Assembly: GCA_017412765.1 (NCBI GenBank)
Contig: JAFPWN010000050.1
Span: 1-51,847 of the forward strand
Direction of reading: 5' to 3'
DNA length: 51,847 nt
Source: Oscillospiraceae bacterium
Lineage (GTDB): Bacteria > Bacillota > Clostridia > Oscillospirales > Oscillospiraceae
Of this stretch, positions 4,301-47,125 are shown in pieces. The notes under the pieces are model-generated. The model was not told the DNA's origin, made no database searches, and worked only from the letters and a program-made list of their open reading frames with translations. The first letter of the stretch is position 1. Each line of letters begins with the position of its first letter. The position numbers and the translations under genes were made by a program.

Positions 4301-7300
4301 CACTCCTCCATCTCCTCGTCCGCCGCCATCTCTGTCTCGAGAAGGTCGAGGTCGATTATTTCGGGTATCCCCACATCCGGGTCATCCTCGAGTGCCTTGA
4401 GCTTCTCGGCGTATTCCCTGAGCCTTTCGACCGCCTGCGTGGTCGCGCCGACGCTGTCTGGGTCTGGCGTGGCGTTCGTAATGAAGAAGCTGTAGCCGTA
4501 GGGAAGCCCGTCAAGGCGGAGCGTTCCGGCCTCGAAGGTCAGCGTCCCGTCAAAGGTACCGGTCTTTTCGTTTCGGATAAGCGTTATCTGACGCAGCTCC
4601 GGCTCAGCCCGCCTCTCGCCGCAGTAGACCGTCATATAGATGCTGTCCTCCGTGAGGGAGTCCGCGTTGTCAAGCGTGAGACTGTAATCGAAGACCATCT
4701 CCTCATTGAGAGTGCCGTCGTCGTTGAACTGATTGGGATAGAACAGGAAGCTCGAGACGCGGTTCTGCGAGGTCTTGAGGTCTATCGTGCCGCCGTAGTT
4801 GCGCCAGCCGAGCCTCGCGCGGACGTTCAGCACGCTCGGCTGCGGTATTTTCGCGCTTTTATTGAGCGCGACGTGATAAACCGGCGACTGCCAGACGCTC
4901 TCATATTCGTCGGCTATCCAGCCGCTCTCACCGACGGCGGTGATAGCGTATATTTCAAGCTGCAATTCGTGGAAGAATGTCCCGTCGCCGTAAGCGCCGA
5001 GGCCGTAGCTTATCTCGTTCGCGCCGCGTCCCGTGAGATTGACGTATTCCCAGACGCCGTCCCTGCCGTCAACATGGAGCATCGCGAAATAGCCGTATTC
5101 GTTCTTCGGCAAAGTCGCGAAATAGACGAGCTTGCCGTTTGGCTCGGAGGTGTAGGTCGGCGGCTCCTGTACGACTATGTCGTTAGCCGGGATTTTGAGG
5201 ACAAAGGAGCTCTCGGATTCGTGGAAGTCGTTGGCGGCGGTGCTCTTCGCCGTTATATACAGAGTCTGACCCTCGGGTCTTGCGTAAACGCAGATCGTCC
5301 CCTCGGGGGCGTTGGCGAATATCCTGACGCCCTTGTAGTGCATACCGAGAACGGCGGTGTCGATAAGCTCCTCGGTGAGCTCCTCCGCCCTGTTCCAGGA
5401 GGCGAAATGACCGTTCACAAGTACTAGCGGGACTGCCGCTTCGCTTTTTTCGGATATGCCTCCCTTTATGTCGATGGTCATTCCGTATTCGCCCGTCACG
5501 GCGGCGAAATCGGTGTCGAAGCCCTTGTAATTTATATAGACAGGCACGGATTCGCCTGTGCGAAGGCTCTCGCCGAGGGTCGCGGTGACTACGACGTTTT
5601 TATAGGGGTCGAAGTCGACGAATGTTGGCGTCGCTGTCACGCTCTCATTGCGTCTCGCGGTGAATTCGAGCTTGTAATAGCCCTTCTGCGGGATGTTCAT
5701 AAGCTCCAGAGCGTTCGGGTCGTCCACCTCGTCGATATATGGGTTCTTCGCGTAGGCAAGATAGGTGTAGTCGCCCTCCTCGAGGTAGATGTCGCCGCCG
5801 GTGTAGCGGTTAGAGAGTTTTTGACCGTTCGCGTCGAATAGCATCCCCCACCAGCTTGTGTACCTGTCCAAGTCCAAACCGCTCGTGTCGATATGCAAGT
5901 AGGGGCGCTTATAGTATTCCGGCTCTCCGAGCGCCTGCGTCCCATCGCCTGTGCCGACTTCTCCGAGCGTGAAGCGCAGGGGCTCCATAGCGTCCGAATC
6001 GCTCGTCCAGATGTCGCATTCGAGCACCATCTCATCCCCTACGGCGCAGCGCTGCGAGAATGCCTCGCGCTCAGACTCCGGGATGTCGAGGATGAATGTG
6101 AAGCTGCCGGACTCGGCGTAGACATTCTCTCCGAGTGGCAGGGAGCCGTGGATATGCGTCCAGCTCTCGCCCGTGGTCTCGTCTGTCAGCGTGTATTTGC
6201 CGTTTCGGTAGGCGTTGCGGGCTATGCGGGCTACGGCCTCGTCCGTGACCTTTATGTAAAACTTGTTGTTTACCGTGTGATCCTTAAAATCGAGCGTCCC
6301 GAGGTCTACGGTCATCGTGTCCGCGTCGAAGTCGCCGAGGGTCTGCACCGAGCGGATTACGAGGGAGCAGTCCTCCCAGTTGAGATTGTCGCCATTGTCG
6401 CAGGAGAAGCTCAGCTCGGTATAGGCGTAGGGCGCGGTGACGGCGAAGGAGCCGTCCTCATTGAAGCTGAGGTCGCGGTAATATGTTATCTCGGGGTAGA
6501 CCGTGGTCAGTCTGCCGCGCTTGTTCGGCCAGTCGCGCATCTCTTTGGGAAGTGTGCCTGTTATAGTGATGATCCTGCCGCTGCGCTTCGTGACATCGAC
6601 GTGTACGACTTCGCCGAGCTGTACGTTCTCAAAAACAAGCTCGTCCGGAACTTTATATATGAGCTTCGCCTCGTCGCTGAAGCGGACAATACAGTCGAGG
6701 GGCTTTTCGCTGTACTGGACGAGGTCTGCGCCGTAGCCCGGGACCATCGTATCGTCGTAGTGGAGGGCGACGAAGCCGTCCGTGTATTCGGGGTCAACTC
6801 TCTCCCGTTCGCGTATCTGCGCCGTTCCCTTGAACCAGAGGACATTGTACATCCTGATGCTGCCGTGGGGGTTCGTGATGCCGAAGCTGAGGCTCTCGGC
6901 CTCTATGAAGGGCTCGACGTGCGTCCCGTTCTGGTCTACAACGTTGACCCAAGCCCATTCGGAAACGTCGATGGGCTCGCGCTTTTCGTAATACTGCGGA
7001 GCCCTTTTGTAGCAGAAACTGCAATAATAGACCTTTTCGCCGATATTTTCGTCGGTTATGTCGAGGTCGCAGCTTGCGAAGCTGTAGAAATGGTCGTGTA
7101 CCTTCTGCGGCTCGAAGCAGTAGCGGCATTCGAGATAGTGTCCGTCCTCCTTGCAGACGTAGTGCTCGTCGAGCTCCTCGTCCGCCCAGTTTATAAGGTG
7201 GTCGTGAGGCTCAACTACGGCATTTTTCCGCACCTCCACGGCGGTCGGATAGTCGCCCCCGCCGGTGGAAAATACCAATAGATAGGCGCTGTCCTCTGCA

Positions 7301-25736: not shown

Positions 25737-25812
25737 GCCCCAGTAGCTCAGCAGGTAGAGCACCGCCCTTTTAAGGCGGGTGTCCAGGGTTCGAATCCCT
25801 GCTGGAGCACCA
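25737..25812 (+). tRNA. tRNA-Lys(TTT), 3' half duplicated downstream
   Basis: 76 nt. Anticodon arm CCGCC-CTTTTAA-GGCGG gives TTT; T arm CAGGG-TTCGAAT-CCCTG; CCA encoded. The acceptor stem has one mismatch, C3 against A70 (GCCCCAG with CTGGAGC). Its last 30 nt recur exactly at 26121-26150, which suggests an integration event at this 3' end; the mismatch could be a trace of a 3' end brought in by the element. Confidence 0.92.
25783..25812 (+). repeat. Left copy of the tRNA-Lys 3'-end direct repeat (putative att)
   Basis: These 30 bases, from the variable loop through CCA, are identical to 26121-26150. The spacing is 338 bp start to start. This is the pattern left by tRNA-targeting integration, here with almost all of the element gone. 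Confidence 0.75.
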
Positions 25813-25846: not shown

Positions 25847-25916
25847 TATTTGCAAGAAAGGATGCGAACCCTGGACACCTAAACGCGAAGCGTTTTTTGA
25901 GCGAAGCGGATAAACG

Positions 25917-26122
25917 GAATACGATTGCAGATCGTATTCAGACTGTAGACAAAAAGAAAAAGCGTTGGATATAGGAGGCGGGGTTCTGTGAAGGGGCCGG
26001 CCAAGAGGCCCATTCACGTCGCAAACAGGCCCGCAGGTGTCATATTTTGCGCTCCGAGAGTGCAAAATATGTTCGATGCGGAGACTTTGTCGACGCATTG
26101 AATACGATTGCAGATCGTATTC
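25917..26122 (+). repeat. Structured repeat element, copy A, flanked by a duplicated 23-bp hairpin
   Basis: A core at 25940-26099 (about 160 bp) is flanked by identical 23-bp copies of a stem-loop (9-bp arms GAATACGAT/ATCGTATTC) at 25917-25939 and 26100-26122. The core starts AGACTGTAGACAAAAAG and ends GTCGACGCAT. Inside are three stems: 25988-25998 with 26007-26017, 26041-26054 with 26058-26071 (14 bp, one G-U), and a shorter one at 26076-26098. The same core occurs inverted at 38587-38752, also flanked by a duplicated but different hairpin. No convincing gene lies within; it resembles a non-autonomous, MITE-like element. Confidence 0.8.
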
Positions 26123-26150
26123 CAGGGTTCGAATCCCTGCTGGAGCACCA
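26121..26150 (+). repeat. Right copy of the tRNA-Lys 3'-end direct repeat
   Basis: Exact copy of 25783-25812 without the rest of a tRNA in front; preceded instead by the right hairpin copy of repeat element A. Likely the distal attachment scar of an integrated element that was later lost. Confidence 0.75.
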
Positions 26151-26187
26151 AGAATGCTTAAACAAAAAAAGATATAAGGAGAATGAA

Positions 26188-38074: not shown

Positions 38075-38575
38075 TTGGAGAGGCAATACCTGACACATGG
38101 ATTTCCGCCGTTTTATGACGCGGATTCCGAGATACTGATACTCGGCTCGTTTCCGTCCGTAAAAAGCCGCGAGGCGCAGTTTTTCTACGGTCACCCTCAG
38201 AACCGATTCTGGCGGGTGATAGCGGCGGTTTACGGCGAGAGAGCGCCGGAGAGCGTTGAGGAGAAGCGCGCGTTTCTCACGCGCAGCAGGATCGCACTTT
38301 ACGACGTTATCGAGGAGTGCAGCATTATCGGCTCGGCGGATTCCACGATAGCCGACGTAGTGCCTGCCGATATCGGCGCGATTCTCAGCGCGACGAGAGT
38401 GGGGGAGCGGGTGTTCACAAACGGCGGCAAGGCGTATGACCTCTATATGAAGCTCATATTTCCGACGCTCGGCGTCGCGGCGGCGAAGCTTCCGAGCACG
38501 AGTCCGGCAAACGCCGCGTGGAGCCTCGAAAAGCTGACTGCGGCATGGGAAGAGATAATCAAGCCGGCGGGGTGA
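38075..38575 (+). CDS. DNA-deoxyinosine (hypoxanthine-DNA) glycosylase, UDG superfamily
   Basis: 166 residues from a TTG start at 38075 with AAGGAAG seven bases upstream. HGFPPFYDADSEILILGSFP is the N-terminal signature of this UDG subfamily, followed by SVKSREAQFFYGHPQNRFW (substrate pocket) and SSTSPANA-like SPANAAW near the C-terminus. By family it removes hypoxanthine arising from adenine deamination, starting base-excision repair. The TGA stop lies inside the terminator-like stem that repeat element copy B has duplicated, so insertion of that element left the gene whole. Confidence 0.85.
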   Translation: MERQYLTHGFPPFYDADSEILILGSFPSVKSREAQFFYGHPQNRFWRVIAAVYGERAPESVEEKRAFLTRSRIALYDVIEECSIIGSADSTIADVVPADIGAILSATRVGERVFTNGGKAYDLYMKLIFPTLGVAAAKLPSTSPANAAWSLEKLTAAWEEIIKPAG

Positions 38576-38775
38576 CCCGCCGGTTTCGATGCGTCGACAA
38601 AGTCTCCGCATCGAACATATTTTGCGCTCCGAGAGCGCAAAATATGACGCCTGAGGGCCTGTTTGCGACGTGAAGGGGCCTCTCGGCCGGCCCCTTCACA
38701 GAACCCCGTCTCCTTTATTCAACGCTTTTTCCTTTTTGTCTACAGTCTTAAACCGGCGGGGTGACCCGCCGGTTT
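38564..38775 (-). repeat. Structured repeat element, copy B, flanked by a duplicated 23-bp hairpin
   Basis: The core (38587-38752, read on the minus strand) matches copy A at 25940-26099 with about a dozen differences by eye. It is flanked by identical 23-bp copies of a different stem-loop (CCGGCGGG-GTGA-CCCGCCGG plus TTT) at 38564-38586 and 38753-38775. Internal stems are preserved: 38616-38629 with 38633-38646 is 14 bp and perfect here where copy A has a G-U, and the GTGAAGGGGCC stem is perfect here where copy A has a mismatch. The right flank ends TTTTATTA and looks like the native terminator of the glycosylase gene. Confidence 0.82.
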
Positions 38776-38777
38776 TA

Positions 38778-40040
38778 TTATATTATATAGTCTGTGATGC
38801 AGTCATACCAGTGGACGTAGGCCGCGCCGTTTACGCGAACTATCTCATTTTCGGGAAGCCGCTCAGTCCACGGCTTGCCGCAGCCCCAATCGTCCCTGTT
38901 GAATCTGCGCCAAAGAACCGTTCTGCCGCTTCTGTCAAGATACTGCTCGCTCATAACGCCGCTGTCATAGGTTTCGATGTCAACGACGCAGATCGTGTCG
39001 AAGCGCTTTTCACCGATTTCAACGGTGTAACGCCCGACGACGTCAAGTAAAAAAGGCTTGTCCTTCGCGGTTATTTCACCGCCTGCGCAGGTTATGTCGC
39101 CCTTGGCGGAGATATTCGTCTCGTTGCCGCAGTTGTTTTCTCCGAAGCCCCAGTTCGGCAGAAACTCATCGCCGTCGAGAAACGTGTGTACCTTCAGAAC
39201 GCCGTTCTCTTTGTGACTTTCCGCGAGAAAGCGGCAGTGCGTGTCCGTCAGCTCGGCAACGAAGGTGCGCTCGGCGTATGCGGTCTCGTCGATCCTGTTG
39301 CAAGGCATCGCGTCAAATTCCCTGCTTTTAACTACGGCGCCGGTGATCCCGTGTATCTCGGCTCTTCCGCTTACCTCAAGCTCGACGTACTCTCCGCGCT
39401 TTCTCTCAGGGAAATCGTACATTGCCCAGGATAGCCGCTCGCCCTCTCTCGGAACGATGAACCAGCCCATAAGCTCTTCCCACTTTACGCTGAACGGCGC
39501 CTCGCTGCATGGGATAATGCGGTATTCCGGCATTGTTTCAGGCATCTTTTTCATAGTTTTTTCTCCTCCCGGCGGGCATGGATACAGTCTTTTGAAATTA
39601 TTTCTCGCCGCGTTCAGCCGGCTTTTGACCGTTCCGAGCGGCAGACCGAGATCGCGCGATATTTCGCTCTGCTTGTAATCCTCAAAATAGTACATGAGCA
39701 TTATCTGCCTGTCCTTGTCTGACAGCTTTGCCAACGTATCGAGTACGGGCGACTCCTTAACGGCTCCGCAGCGGCTCATAGGCAGTACGGCTTCTCCGCA
39801 GACCTCTAAACTCACGTCGTCGCTTTTTCTGCGGTAGTAGTCAACGCATTTGTTTTTAGCAATGCAGATGAGCCACGCCTTGAAGCTCTCGCGCCGCTTG
39901 AGGCGGCCGAAGCTCTTATATGCGGAGATGCAGGTCTCCTGAATTATATCCTCCGCATCGGCAAACGAGGGGACACGGTATCGCACGAAGCGCTCGAGCG
40001 CGCCGCGATTGGCTTCGAGCAAGGCTTCAAAATCTTCCAT
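38778..40040 (-). CDS. ECF sigma factor fused to a large C-terminal domain
   Basis: 420 residues from the ATG at 40040 (TTG 12 bases upstream possible). Residues 1-160 are a normal ECF sigma factor: region 2 in RYRVPSFADAEDIIQETCISAY and KAWLICIAKNKCVDYYRR, region 4 in LAKLSDKDRQIMLMYYFEDY and EISRDLGLPLGTVKSRL. After a Pro/Gly linker a domain of about 255 residues follows, beta-rich, with a Cys/Asn motif in GDEFLPNWGFGENNCGNET. No anti-sigma gene is adjacent, so this extension may control sigma activity (inference from fused ECF groups). An ECF-like promoter (40074-40099) precedes the gene, suggesting autoregulation. Confidence 0.85.
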   Translation of the reverse strand: MEDFEALLEANRGALERFVRYRVPSFADAEDIIQETCISAYKSFGRLKRRESFKAWLICIAKNKCVDYYRRKSDDVSLEVCGEAVLPMSRCGAVKESPVLDTLAKLSDKDRQIMLMYYFEDYKQSEISRDLGLPLGTVKSRLNAARNNFKRLYPCPPGGEKTMKKMPETMPEYRIIPCSEAPFSVKWEELMGWFIVPREGERLSWAMYDFPERKRGEYVELEVSGRAEIHGITGAVVKSREFDAMPCNRIDETAYAERTFVAELTDTHCRFLAESHKENGVLKVHTFLDGDEFLPNWGFGENNCGNETNISAKGDITCAGGEITAKDKPFLLDVVGRYTVEIGEKRFDTICVVDIETYDSGVMSEQYLDRSGRTVLWRRFNRDDWGCGKPWTERLPENEIVRVNGAAYVHWYDCITDYII

Positions 40041-40073
40041 AGCACCACCCAAAAATCAGCTTTCGCAGATAAA

Positions 40074-46904: not shown

Positions 46905-46940
46905 GGTGATACGAGGACAAAAATGCCCCGAGTTTGGCCA

Positions 46941-47106
46941 TTGATAGCGCTCCACAAAGTCTTGTGACAGTCCGGCGGGTATTTCCCGACGGCCCAGAAA
47001 CGGAAAAACGGCAGCTCTCCCGAATCTTCGGCGGATAACCCTTTCGCTCCGGACGGTCTGCCGACCTTGTCCGGCGCTACTTATGCGCTCCGCACCTCTA
47101 TCTAAG
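46941..47106 (-). promoter_or_regulatory. Lysine riboswitch (L-box) aptamer
   Basis: Minus-strand order of conserved elements: GATAGAGGTGCGG, CATAAGTAG, GAAAGGG, CCGCCGAAG, CTGGG, GGACTGTCAC and GTGGAGCGCTATC, which are the core blocks of the L-box family. Closing helix P1 forms between TTAGATAG (near 47100) and CTATCAA (near 46942). Lysine binding should favour the terminator at 46876-46904 and switch the transporter gene off. Confidence 0.95.
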
Positions 47107-47125
47107 CGATTCACTTTTCTCACGC

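Follow-up and report, generated by a model that had tools for sequence, protein, structure and literature searches.

Within the window (the whole stretch of 51,847 nucleotides analysed here, from an Oscillospiraceae bacterium) a 160-bp core occurs twice, and each time it stands between two copies of a hairpin. The hairpins of copy A and those of copy B are unrelated in sequence and have only their fold in common. In the textbook account, a DDE transposase itself fixes the length of the short target duplication that it leaves. Is the core a mobile element that duplicates a whole folded target and, if so, what sets the length of the duplication? The original prediction, made from the letters of this DNA, was that an element recognising a fold had duplicated each hairpin entire. 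The analysis reported here supports this mechanism in its essentials, on the strength of the many copies, their unrelated hairpins, the way repeat length follows hairpin length, and the single hairpin found at nine of nine loci that lack the element in a relative.

Copies A and B

As had been noted, the core recurs inverted at copy B (Table 1), and in both places the flanking repeat is a complete hairpin. A perfect 23-bp direct repeat had been described for each copy; this holds for copy A, and at copy B the two hairpins match over 26 bp with one mismatch, a perfect 23-bp stretch lying inside the match. The element proper probably extends one base beyond the core at either end (C...G), a feature of 48 of the 68 copies analysed below; less this terminal C/G pair, the duplication at copy A spans 25918-25938. 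Copy B sits between two convergent genes, one uracil-DNA-glycosylase-like and one sigma-70-like. Five tRNA genes in a row precede copy A, which has tRNA-Lys on one side and, on the other, a second occurrence of part of that gene's 3' end. A further, inverted piece of the same 3' end precedes the left hairpin of copy A, and these pieces may be the relic of a tRNA-associated rearrangement or integration.

Table 1. Features around the two copies of the element and elsewhere in the window
Feature	Position	Strand	Remarks
tRNA-Lys gene	25737-25812
Inverted piece of tRNA-Lys 3' end	25855-25879		before left hairpin of copy A
Left hairpin, copy A	25917-25939		9-bp arms, 5-nt loop
MITE copy A, core (160 bp)	25940-26099	+	between two identical 23-bp hairpins
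Internal hairpin of the MITE	~26041-26071		stem varies among copies
Right hairpin, copy A	26100-26122		perfect 23-bp repeat of 25917-25939
Repeated piece of tRNA-Lys 3' end	26121-26152		just past right hairpin of copy A
Uracil-DNA-glycosylase-superfamily gene	38075-38575	+	convergent on copy B; frame ends inside hairpin
Hairpin, copy B, beside uracil-DNA-glycosylase-like gene	38561-38586		one mismatch to partner
MITE copy B	~38588-38748	-	93% identical to copy A (match 38589-38748)
Partner hairpin, copy B	38750-38775		terminator-like, T-rich tail on + strand; adjoins sigma-70-like gene
Sigma-70-like gene	38778-40052	-	ends at copy B
Lysine riboswitch	46937-47108	-	96 bits

A group II intron or another known RNA was considered for the core and rejected: it has no Rfam match at the gathering score, the Rfam matches in the window being tRNAs and the lysine riboswitch only.

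A MITE with about 60 copies

The core is a miniature inverted-repeat element (MITE) of which this genome has about 60 copies. With up to three mismatches allowed, the right end was found 63 times and a reversed control pattern twice, and the core itself has at least 40 long matches (40 of 86 first-look candidates were scored). The two ends are unequal: the left 14 bp are identical to the end of an insertion sequence (IS) in this genome, and the right end is a diverged relative. It was classed as a MITE because it shares an end with an IS, lacks a transposase, has many copies and shows a duplication in 40 of the 68 analysed; having no transposase, it is the non-autonomous passenger that had been proposed. 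A search of related genomes, which had also been proposed, located the element (E 1e-6) in only two congeners, G026 and G028, among 79 relatives of which 33 were congeners, and phage and plasmid collections gave no match to the core at E 1e-5. The collection so assembled has 88 rows, 86 of them distinct, with 66 from this genome and 20 loci from G026 and G028. Some of the 86 are partial at contig ends, and the set analysed below comprises the 68 copies with at least 100 bases on both sides.

The stem of the hairpin inside the element differs among copies, several of which have matching changes on both arms (CGCTC/GAGCG in some, CACTC/GAGTG in others). These paired changes suggest that the element's own fold may be conserved.

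Duplication of the target hairpin

A hairpin was called at the right edge of 56 of the 68 copies, at the left edge of 49 and at both edges of 46, compared with 17 of 1320 random positions in the flanks. Direct repeats scoring at least 12 flank 45 of the 68; when the right flanks were re-dealt 20 times as a chance control, the mean was 0.05 of 68 and the maximum 1. When the ends were defined more strictly, 41 copies had a repeat, of 18-33 bp and with no more than one mismatch. The duplicated sequences are unrelated from site to site, only one pair in 820 exceeding 80% identity, and the idea that the element carries the hairpins with it was for this reason rejected. What does follow from site to site is length: in the 43 copies with a hairpin on the right as well as a repeat, the length of the repeat (19-33) tracks that of the hairpin (18-33) with r = 0.84, and the difference between the two has a mean of -0.14 and a standard deviation of 1.7. 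The sequences show an element whose left end is related to that of an IS1182-type IS (see below), and at many sites the duplication of whole, mutually unrelated hairpins.

Sorting the copies by their flanks gave 40 copies whose hairpin is directly duplicated with no more than one mismatch, one direct repeat without a hairpin call, three hairpin pairs with mutually inverted loops, six pairs of unequal hairpins, eight copies with a hairpin called at one side only, five with a short exact repeat of 6-8 bp and five with neither hairpin nor repeat. The assignment is mechanical and errs both ways; locus L063, for example, is a truncated element placed in the last class though two hairpins can be seen there by eye. 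The expectation that the flanks of every copy would carry a duplication thus stood in part, the 40 direct duplications being set against 27 of 68 copies without a long repeat, some of them truncated or diverged and a few resembling single-hairpin or hairpin-free insertions. Five of the 27 have exact 6-8 bp repeats flush with the element ends, as do 3 of 4556 mismatched flank pairs, and the sites with this short duplication are mostly AT-rich.

Could the stagger simply be a constant one? The original prediction laid weight on the equal 23-bp length at copies A and B, but this is a coincidence, since the long repeats in the 41 copies range over 18-33 bp. MITE repeats do cluster near 23 bp (11 of the 41 have exactly this length), as would suit a transposase of fixed geometry that cut with a constant stagger of about 23 bp and read the inverted repeat in duplex DNA, so that the hairpin filled the stagger. 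We think this quite unlikely, given that the repeat follows the hairpin over 18-33 bp for the MITE and reaches 40 bp for the IS relatives described below, ending at about the palindrome edge, and that some sites have exact repeats of 6-8 bp.

Sites without the element in relatives

Both flanks of the 68 copies were compared by BLAST with stretches from relatives, and the sites were judged by eye. An element-free relative was found at nine loci (L006, L012, L014, L025, L028, L033, L063, L020 and L099), of which L025 is copy B, and L033 and L020 each have two element-free relatives. A further locus, L107, was left out, as G026 holds a different insert there. All nine element-free sites carry one hairpin, copy B included, whose counterpart in G026 has a single hairpin and no MITE. 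The filled sites have two hairpins at seven of the nine loci and one hairpin plus a partial copy at the other two, L020 and L099, where the right hairpin is full and the left is represented only by its first few bases. This partial pattern would fit a stagger of 4-6 bp at the 5' foot, or a later deletion. Some loci (L023, L040) share the insertion between species. At copy A no clean element-free counterpart was found, and G026 is rearranged there.

The original prediction had proposed a comparison with orthologous loci lacking the element, and none of the nine has two hairpins. Their state also bears on the order of events. Hairpins provoke slippage, and a tandem duplication of the hairpin might have arisen first (for example by replication slippage), with the element entering between the two copies later; the single hairpin of the relative could in principle then follow from a deletion. 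With two hairpins at none of the nine element-free loci, and with unrelated hairpins lying flush against the element ends in several phyla, we judge such an order very improbable. Deletion between direct hairpins could likewise turn a filled site into an element-free site with one hairpin; at L020 and L033 both relatives are element-free, which makes loss less likely there and favours insertion. The single-hairpin sites of relatives, like the length tracking and the minority short mode, can be read off the genome sequences themselves.

The same loci bear on a replacement of the type described for IS1272, in which the target hairpin would be deleted, and the flanking hairpins would be borne by the element or have existed beforehand. 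In its favour, the accessible parts of two papers place IS1272 in the same family and describe it as hairpin-targeting (PMC5678879, PMC4923244). The flanking hairpins here, however, differ by site and match the single hairpin of the relative (one copy, not zero or two), and hairpin deletion of the IS1272 type was seen at none of the nine loci. We give this explanation next to no credence.

A side observation concerns the excluded locus. In G026 (L239, about 5799-5868) a short insert with inverted ends occupies the hairpin loop region where G028 (L107) has the MITE; it may be a second hairpin-seeking element or an old scar.

The likely parent insertion sequence

The left-end sequence of the MITE is also found at contig ends, leading there not into the core but into a different element. 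This element is an IS with four left ends and three right ends in the assembly, each of the three right ends being paired with a left end by its hairpin. Two of the four left ends reach a reading frame beginning MMTRDAAKNREQMQILSLDDLVPKNHLV, and two of the three right ends encode the C-terminus of a protein of this kind. Of the transposase, the assembly contains the first 28 residues and roughly the last 70 and lacks the middle. The C-terminal piece matches IS1182 relatives, and from its shared left end the likely parent of the MITE appears to be this IS1182-family insertion sequence.

Both IS ends are present in this genome, on separate contigs; an intact transposase gene was not found in the assembly, and a Pfam search of the same genome for a transposase returned only a fragment with two stop codons. 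In G026 and G028, both of which hold the MITE, there was no match to the left end of this IS. We infer that this IS probably drives this MITE. At one place the same flank and hairpin are followed by the IS at the end of contig C68 (L075) and by the MITE at the start of contig C43 (L027). A strain mixture, a contig overlap or two insertions at one hairpin may account for this shared site.

IS1182 relatives with and without duplication

When the named genomes were scanned with the C-terminus, 311 relatives came up; the best 80 of them are 46-86% identical over the matched stretches and come from Oscillospiraceae, Lachnospiraceae and other Clostridia. Two full-length relatives score 453 and 461 bits with the NCBIfam IS1182 model NF033551 (cut-off 270) and match PF13751 and PF05598. 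In the relatives a single reading frame lies between inverted ends some 1.65 kb apart; IS1182-family elements range from about 1.3 to 1.95 kb. As the related IS encodes a DDE transposase, a group IIC intron was rejected as the mobile agent. A PDB search with the transposase gave chance-level matches only (best E 0.46).

The survey of IS1182 elements took in the named genomes, a class-wide sample of 148 genomes (17 with a match) and public replicons, and collected loci related to one query protein, including the best 80 of the 311 candidate stretches. Both strands were searched; of 63 near-full transposases 16 were set aside for flanks shorter than 230 bases, and 47 were examined. Near-copies among these are not independent (three Kineothrix loci, and three plasmids with one and the same ISEfa7 site). 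Direct repeats that are palindromic and 19-40 bp long flank 24 of the 47, in Bacillota, a fusobacterium and Rhizobium. Eleven are from Lachnospiraceae (21-40 bp; L115, L116, L122, L126, L131, L134, L147, L178, L181, L182, L185) and three from further Clostridia (L287, L289 and L294, the last with an inverted loop). The public replicons contributed Acetoanaerobium (24 bp), Rhizobium sp. (19), Lactococcus (20), Cetobacterium (22), Sutcliffiella (30), Peribacillus (24), Enterococcus casseliflavus (19), Staphylococcus arlettae (21), ISBspe1 of Alkalihalophilus (20) and Rhizobium binae (20).

The other 23 loci are without a palindromic repeat. Two have non-palindromic repeats (L295, L296), and in 21 no repeat reaches 14 bp: L113, L128, L132, L155, L177, L180, L187, L190, L288, L290, L292, L297, L305, L307, L312, L313 and L314 (ISEfa7, one site in three plasmids), L316 (ISCfr1), L321, L322 and L323. 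At L155, L180, L321 and L323 the two IS ends adjoin different hairpins, and these are probably junctions of recombination between IS copies.

How are the duplicating elements related? A transposase tree was built from 44 rows, L113, L318 and L323 having been dropped for want of a long open frame. All 23 duplicating rows fall in one group of 35 (support 99/98), alongside 12 rows without a palindromic repeat; none of the nine rows outside this group duplicates, several of these having uncertain ends and long branches.

A model for fold-set duplication

DDE transposases normally join their ends at a fixed spacing of a few bases, and repair copies the gap. In the explanation that we consider the best, with a probability of roughly 0.8, insertion at the 5' feet of a cruciform would duplicate the whole hairpin and the fold would set the length. 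The target would be a perfect or near-perfect inverted repeat, often terminator-like, able to extrude as a cruciform, and both element ends would be joined at its 5' feet, which should be adjacent at the four-way junction and within reach of an ordinary enzyme. The whole hairpin would become the single-stranded overlap on each side of the element, and fill-in of the gaps would leave one full hairpin on either side. The duplication would then be as long as the fold dictates (18-40 bp) and end near the palindrome edge; on flat DNA the same enzyme would be expected to make an ordinary stagger of 6-8 bp. Cruciform extrusion (or single-stranded folding), strand transfer at the 5' feet and fill-in repair are the steps that we infer. 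For an IS1182 clade represented in Bacillota, Fusobacteriota and Alphaproteobacteria it is likely that the target fold sets the duplication in the same way, by insertion across a cruciform at its 5' feet that would copy whole hairpins, perhaps many of them terminators, with 6-8 bp duplications on flat DNA.

Single-stranded hairpins are the targets of IS200/IS605 elements and group IIC introns. By analogy the hairpin might here be recognised in a single strand, either on the lagging strand or in the wake of RNA polymerase, and the other strand be cut afterwards; terminators are indeed transcribed. Of the 46 copies with both hairpins, 31 have the right hairpin followed by a T-run, the left one preceded by an A-run, or both, a count that has no chance control and for which gene ends were examined at copy B. 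The orientation of the MITE relative to the T-run has no clear bias (12 against 8, with 11 both and 15 neither, of 46, again with no chance control), which speaks against single-stranded folding and fits a symmetric cruciform; duplication of a whole hairpin, moreover, requires offset breaks in both strands. We accordingly regard recognition in a single strand as unlikely, if less so than a constant stagger.

Insertion at cruciform feet followed by simple gap repair does not explain the inverted loops (three of the 68 copies, plus L027 and the IS copy L294). At L022, L029 (second copy), L104, L027 and the IS locus L294 the arms of the two hairpins are identical or almost so, and the loops are reverse complements or nearly so. 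One guess is that the folded hairpin is flipped during repair or replication.

If the model is true, both neighbours of the element keep a hairpin, and the element would colonise gene ends with little damage. Insertion might also be a route by which terminators multiply, and the duplications could mark, across a whole genome, which sequences fold as DNA inside living cells.

Comparison with known systems

Group IIC introns, IS110/IS1111 and IS200/IS605 elements choose hairpins (terminators, attC, REP), and to our knowledge leave no target duplication. The choice of a hairpin is as seen here; the likely parent in the present case has a DDE transposase. Bacterial MITEs resemble the 160-bp core in lacking a transposase, in sharing an end with an IS and in their many copies. 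They have a short fixed duplication, whereas the MITE described here has unequal ends and a whole-hairpin duplication set by the target. In our view there is good support for a new MITE of IS1182 type whose target duplication apparently takes its size from the target fold.

The IS1182 family as treated in ISfinder, so far as the accessible descriptions go, likewise has the NCBIfam IS1182 transposase, terminal inverted repeats and very variable direct repeats; the accessible part of a paper on IS982 quotes 2-60 bp for them from ISfinder, and gives no reason for the variation (PMC7335449). A duplication length read from the fold would explain this spread. In the accessible part of another paper, Siguier et al. 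are cited for palindromic IS1182 targets, without detailed data (PMC5678879).

The closest parallels are IS1272 and TnSha1, also of the IS1182 family. According to the accessible parts of the two papers on them, they target hairpins including terminators, and all or part of the hairpin is lost with no duplication (PMC4923244, PMC5678879), a mode named 'IR-replacing' or 'stem-loop replacing' transposition (PMC5678879; PMC4923244), with a target size of 21-85 bp (PMC5678879). In the part of Wan et al. 2017 (PMC5678879) available to us, duplication of a whole stem-loop is drawn as 'pathway b' (Fig 13), with no example met. We found no description of whole-hairpin duplication in the open-access literature; ISfinder, TnPedia and subscription reviews may contain one. 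The family and its hairpin targeting were already known, and it is the mode of duplication, the length rule, the dual mode and the clade spread that appear to be undescribed. The duplication length is apparently read from the target fold, and the sites assembled here, several dozen in number, provide natural evidence for the branch drawn for IS1272. They suggest that one family can either delete or duplicate hairpins, depending on which foot is attacked. Like the MITE in this genome, IS1272 and TnSha1 target hairpins whose sequence is not fixed, and theirs are often terminators; they reportedly remove all or part of the hairpin without duplication, whereas the MITE keeps its target hairpin and duplicates it whole.
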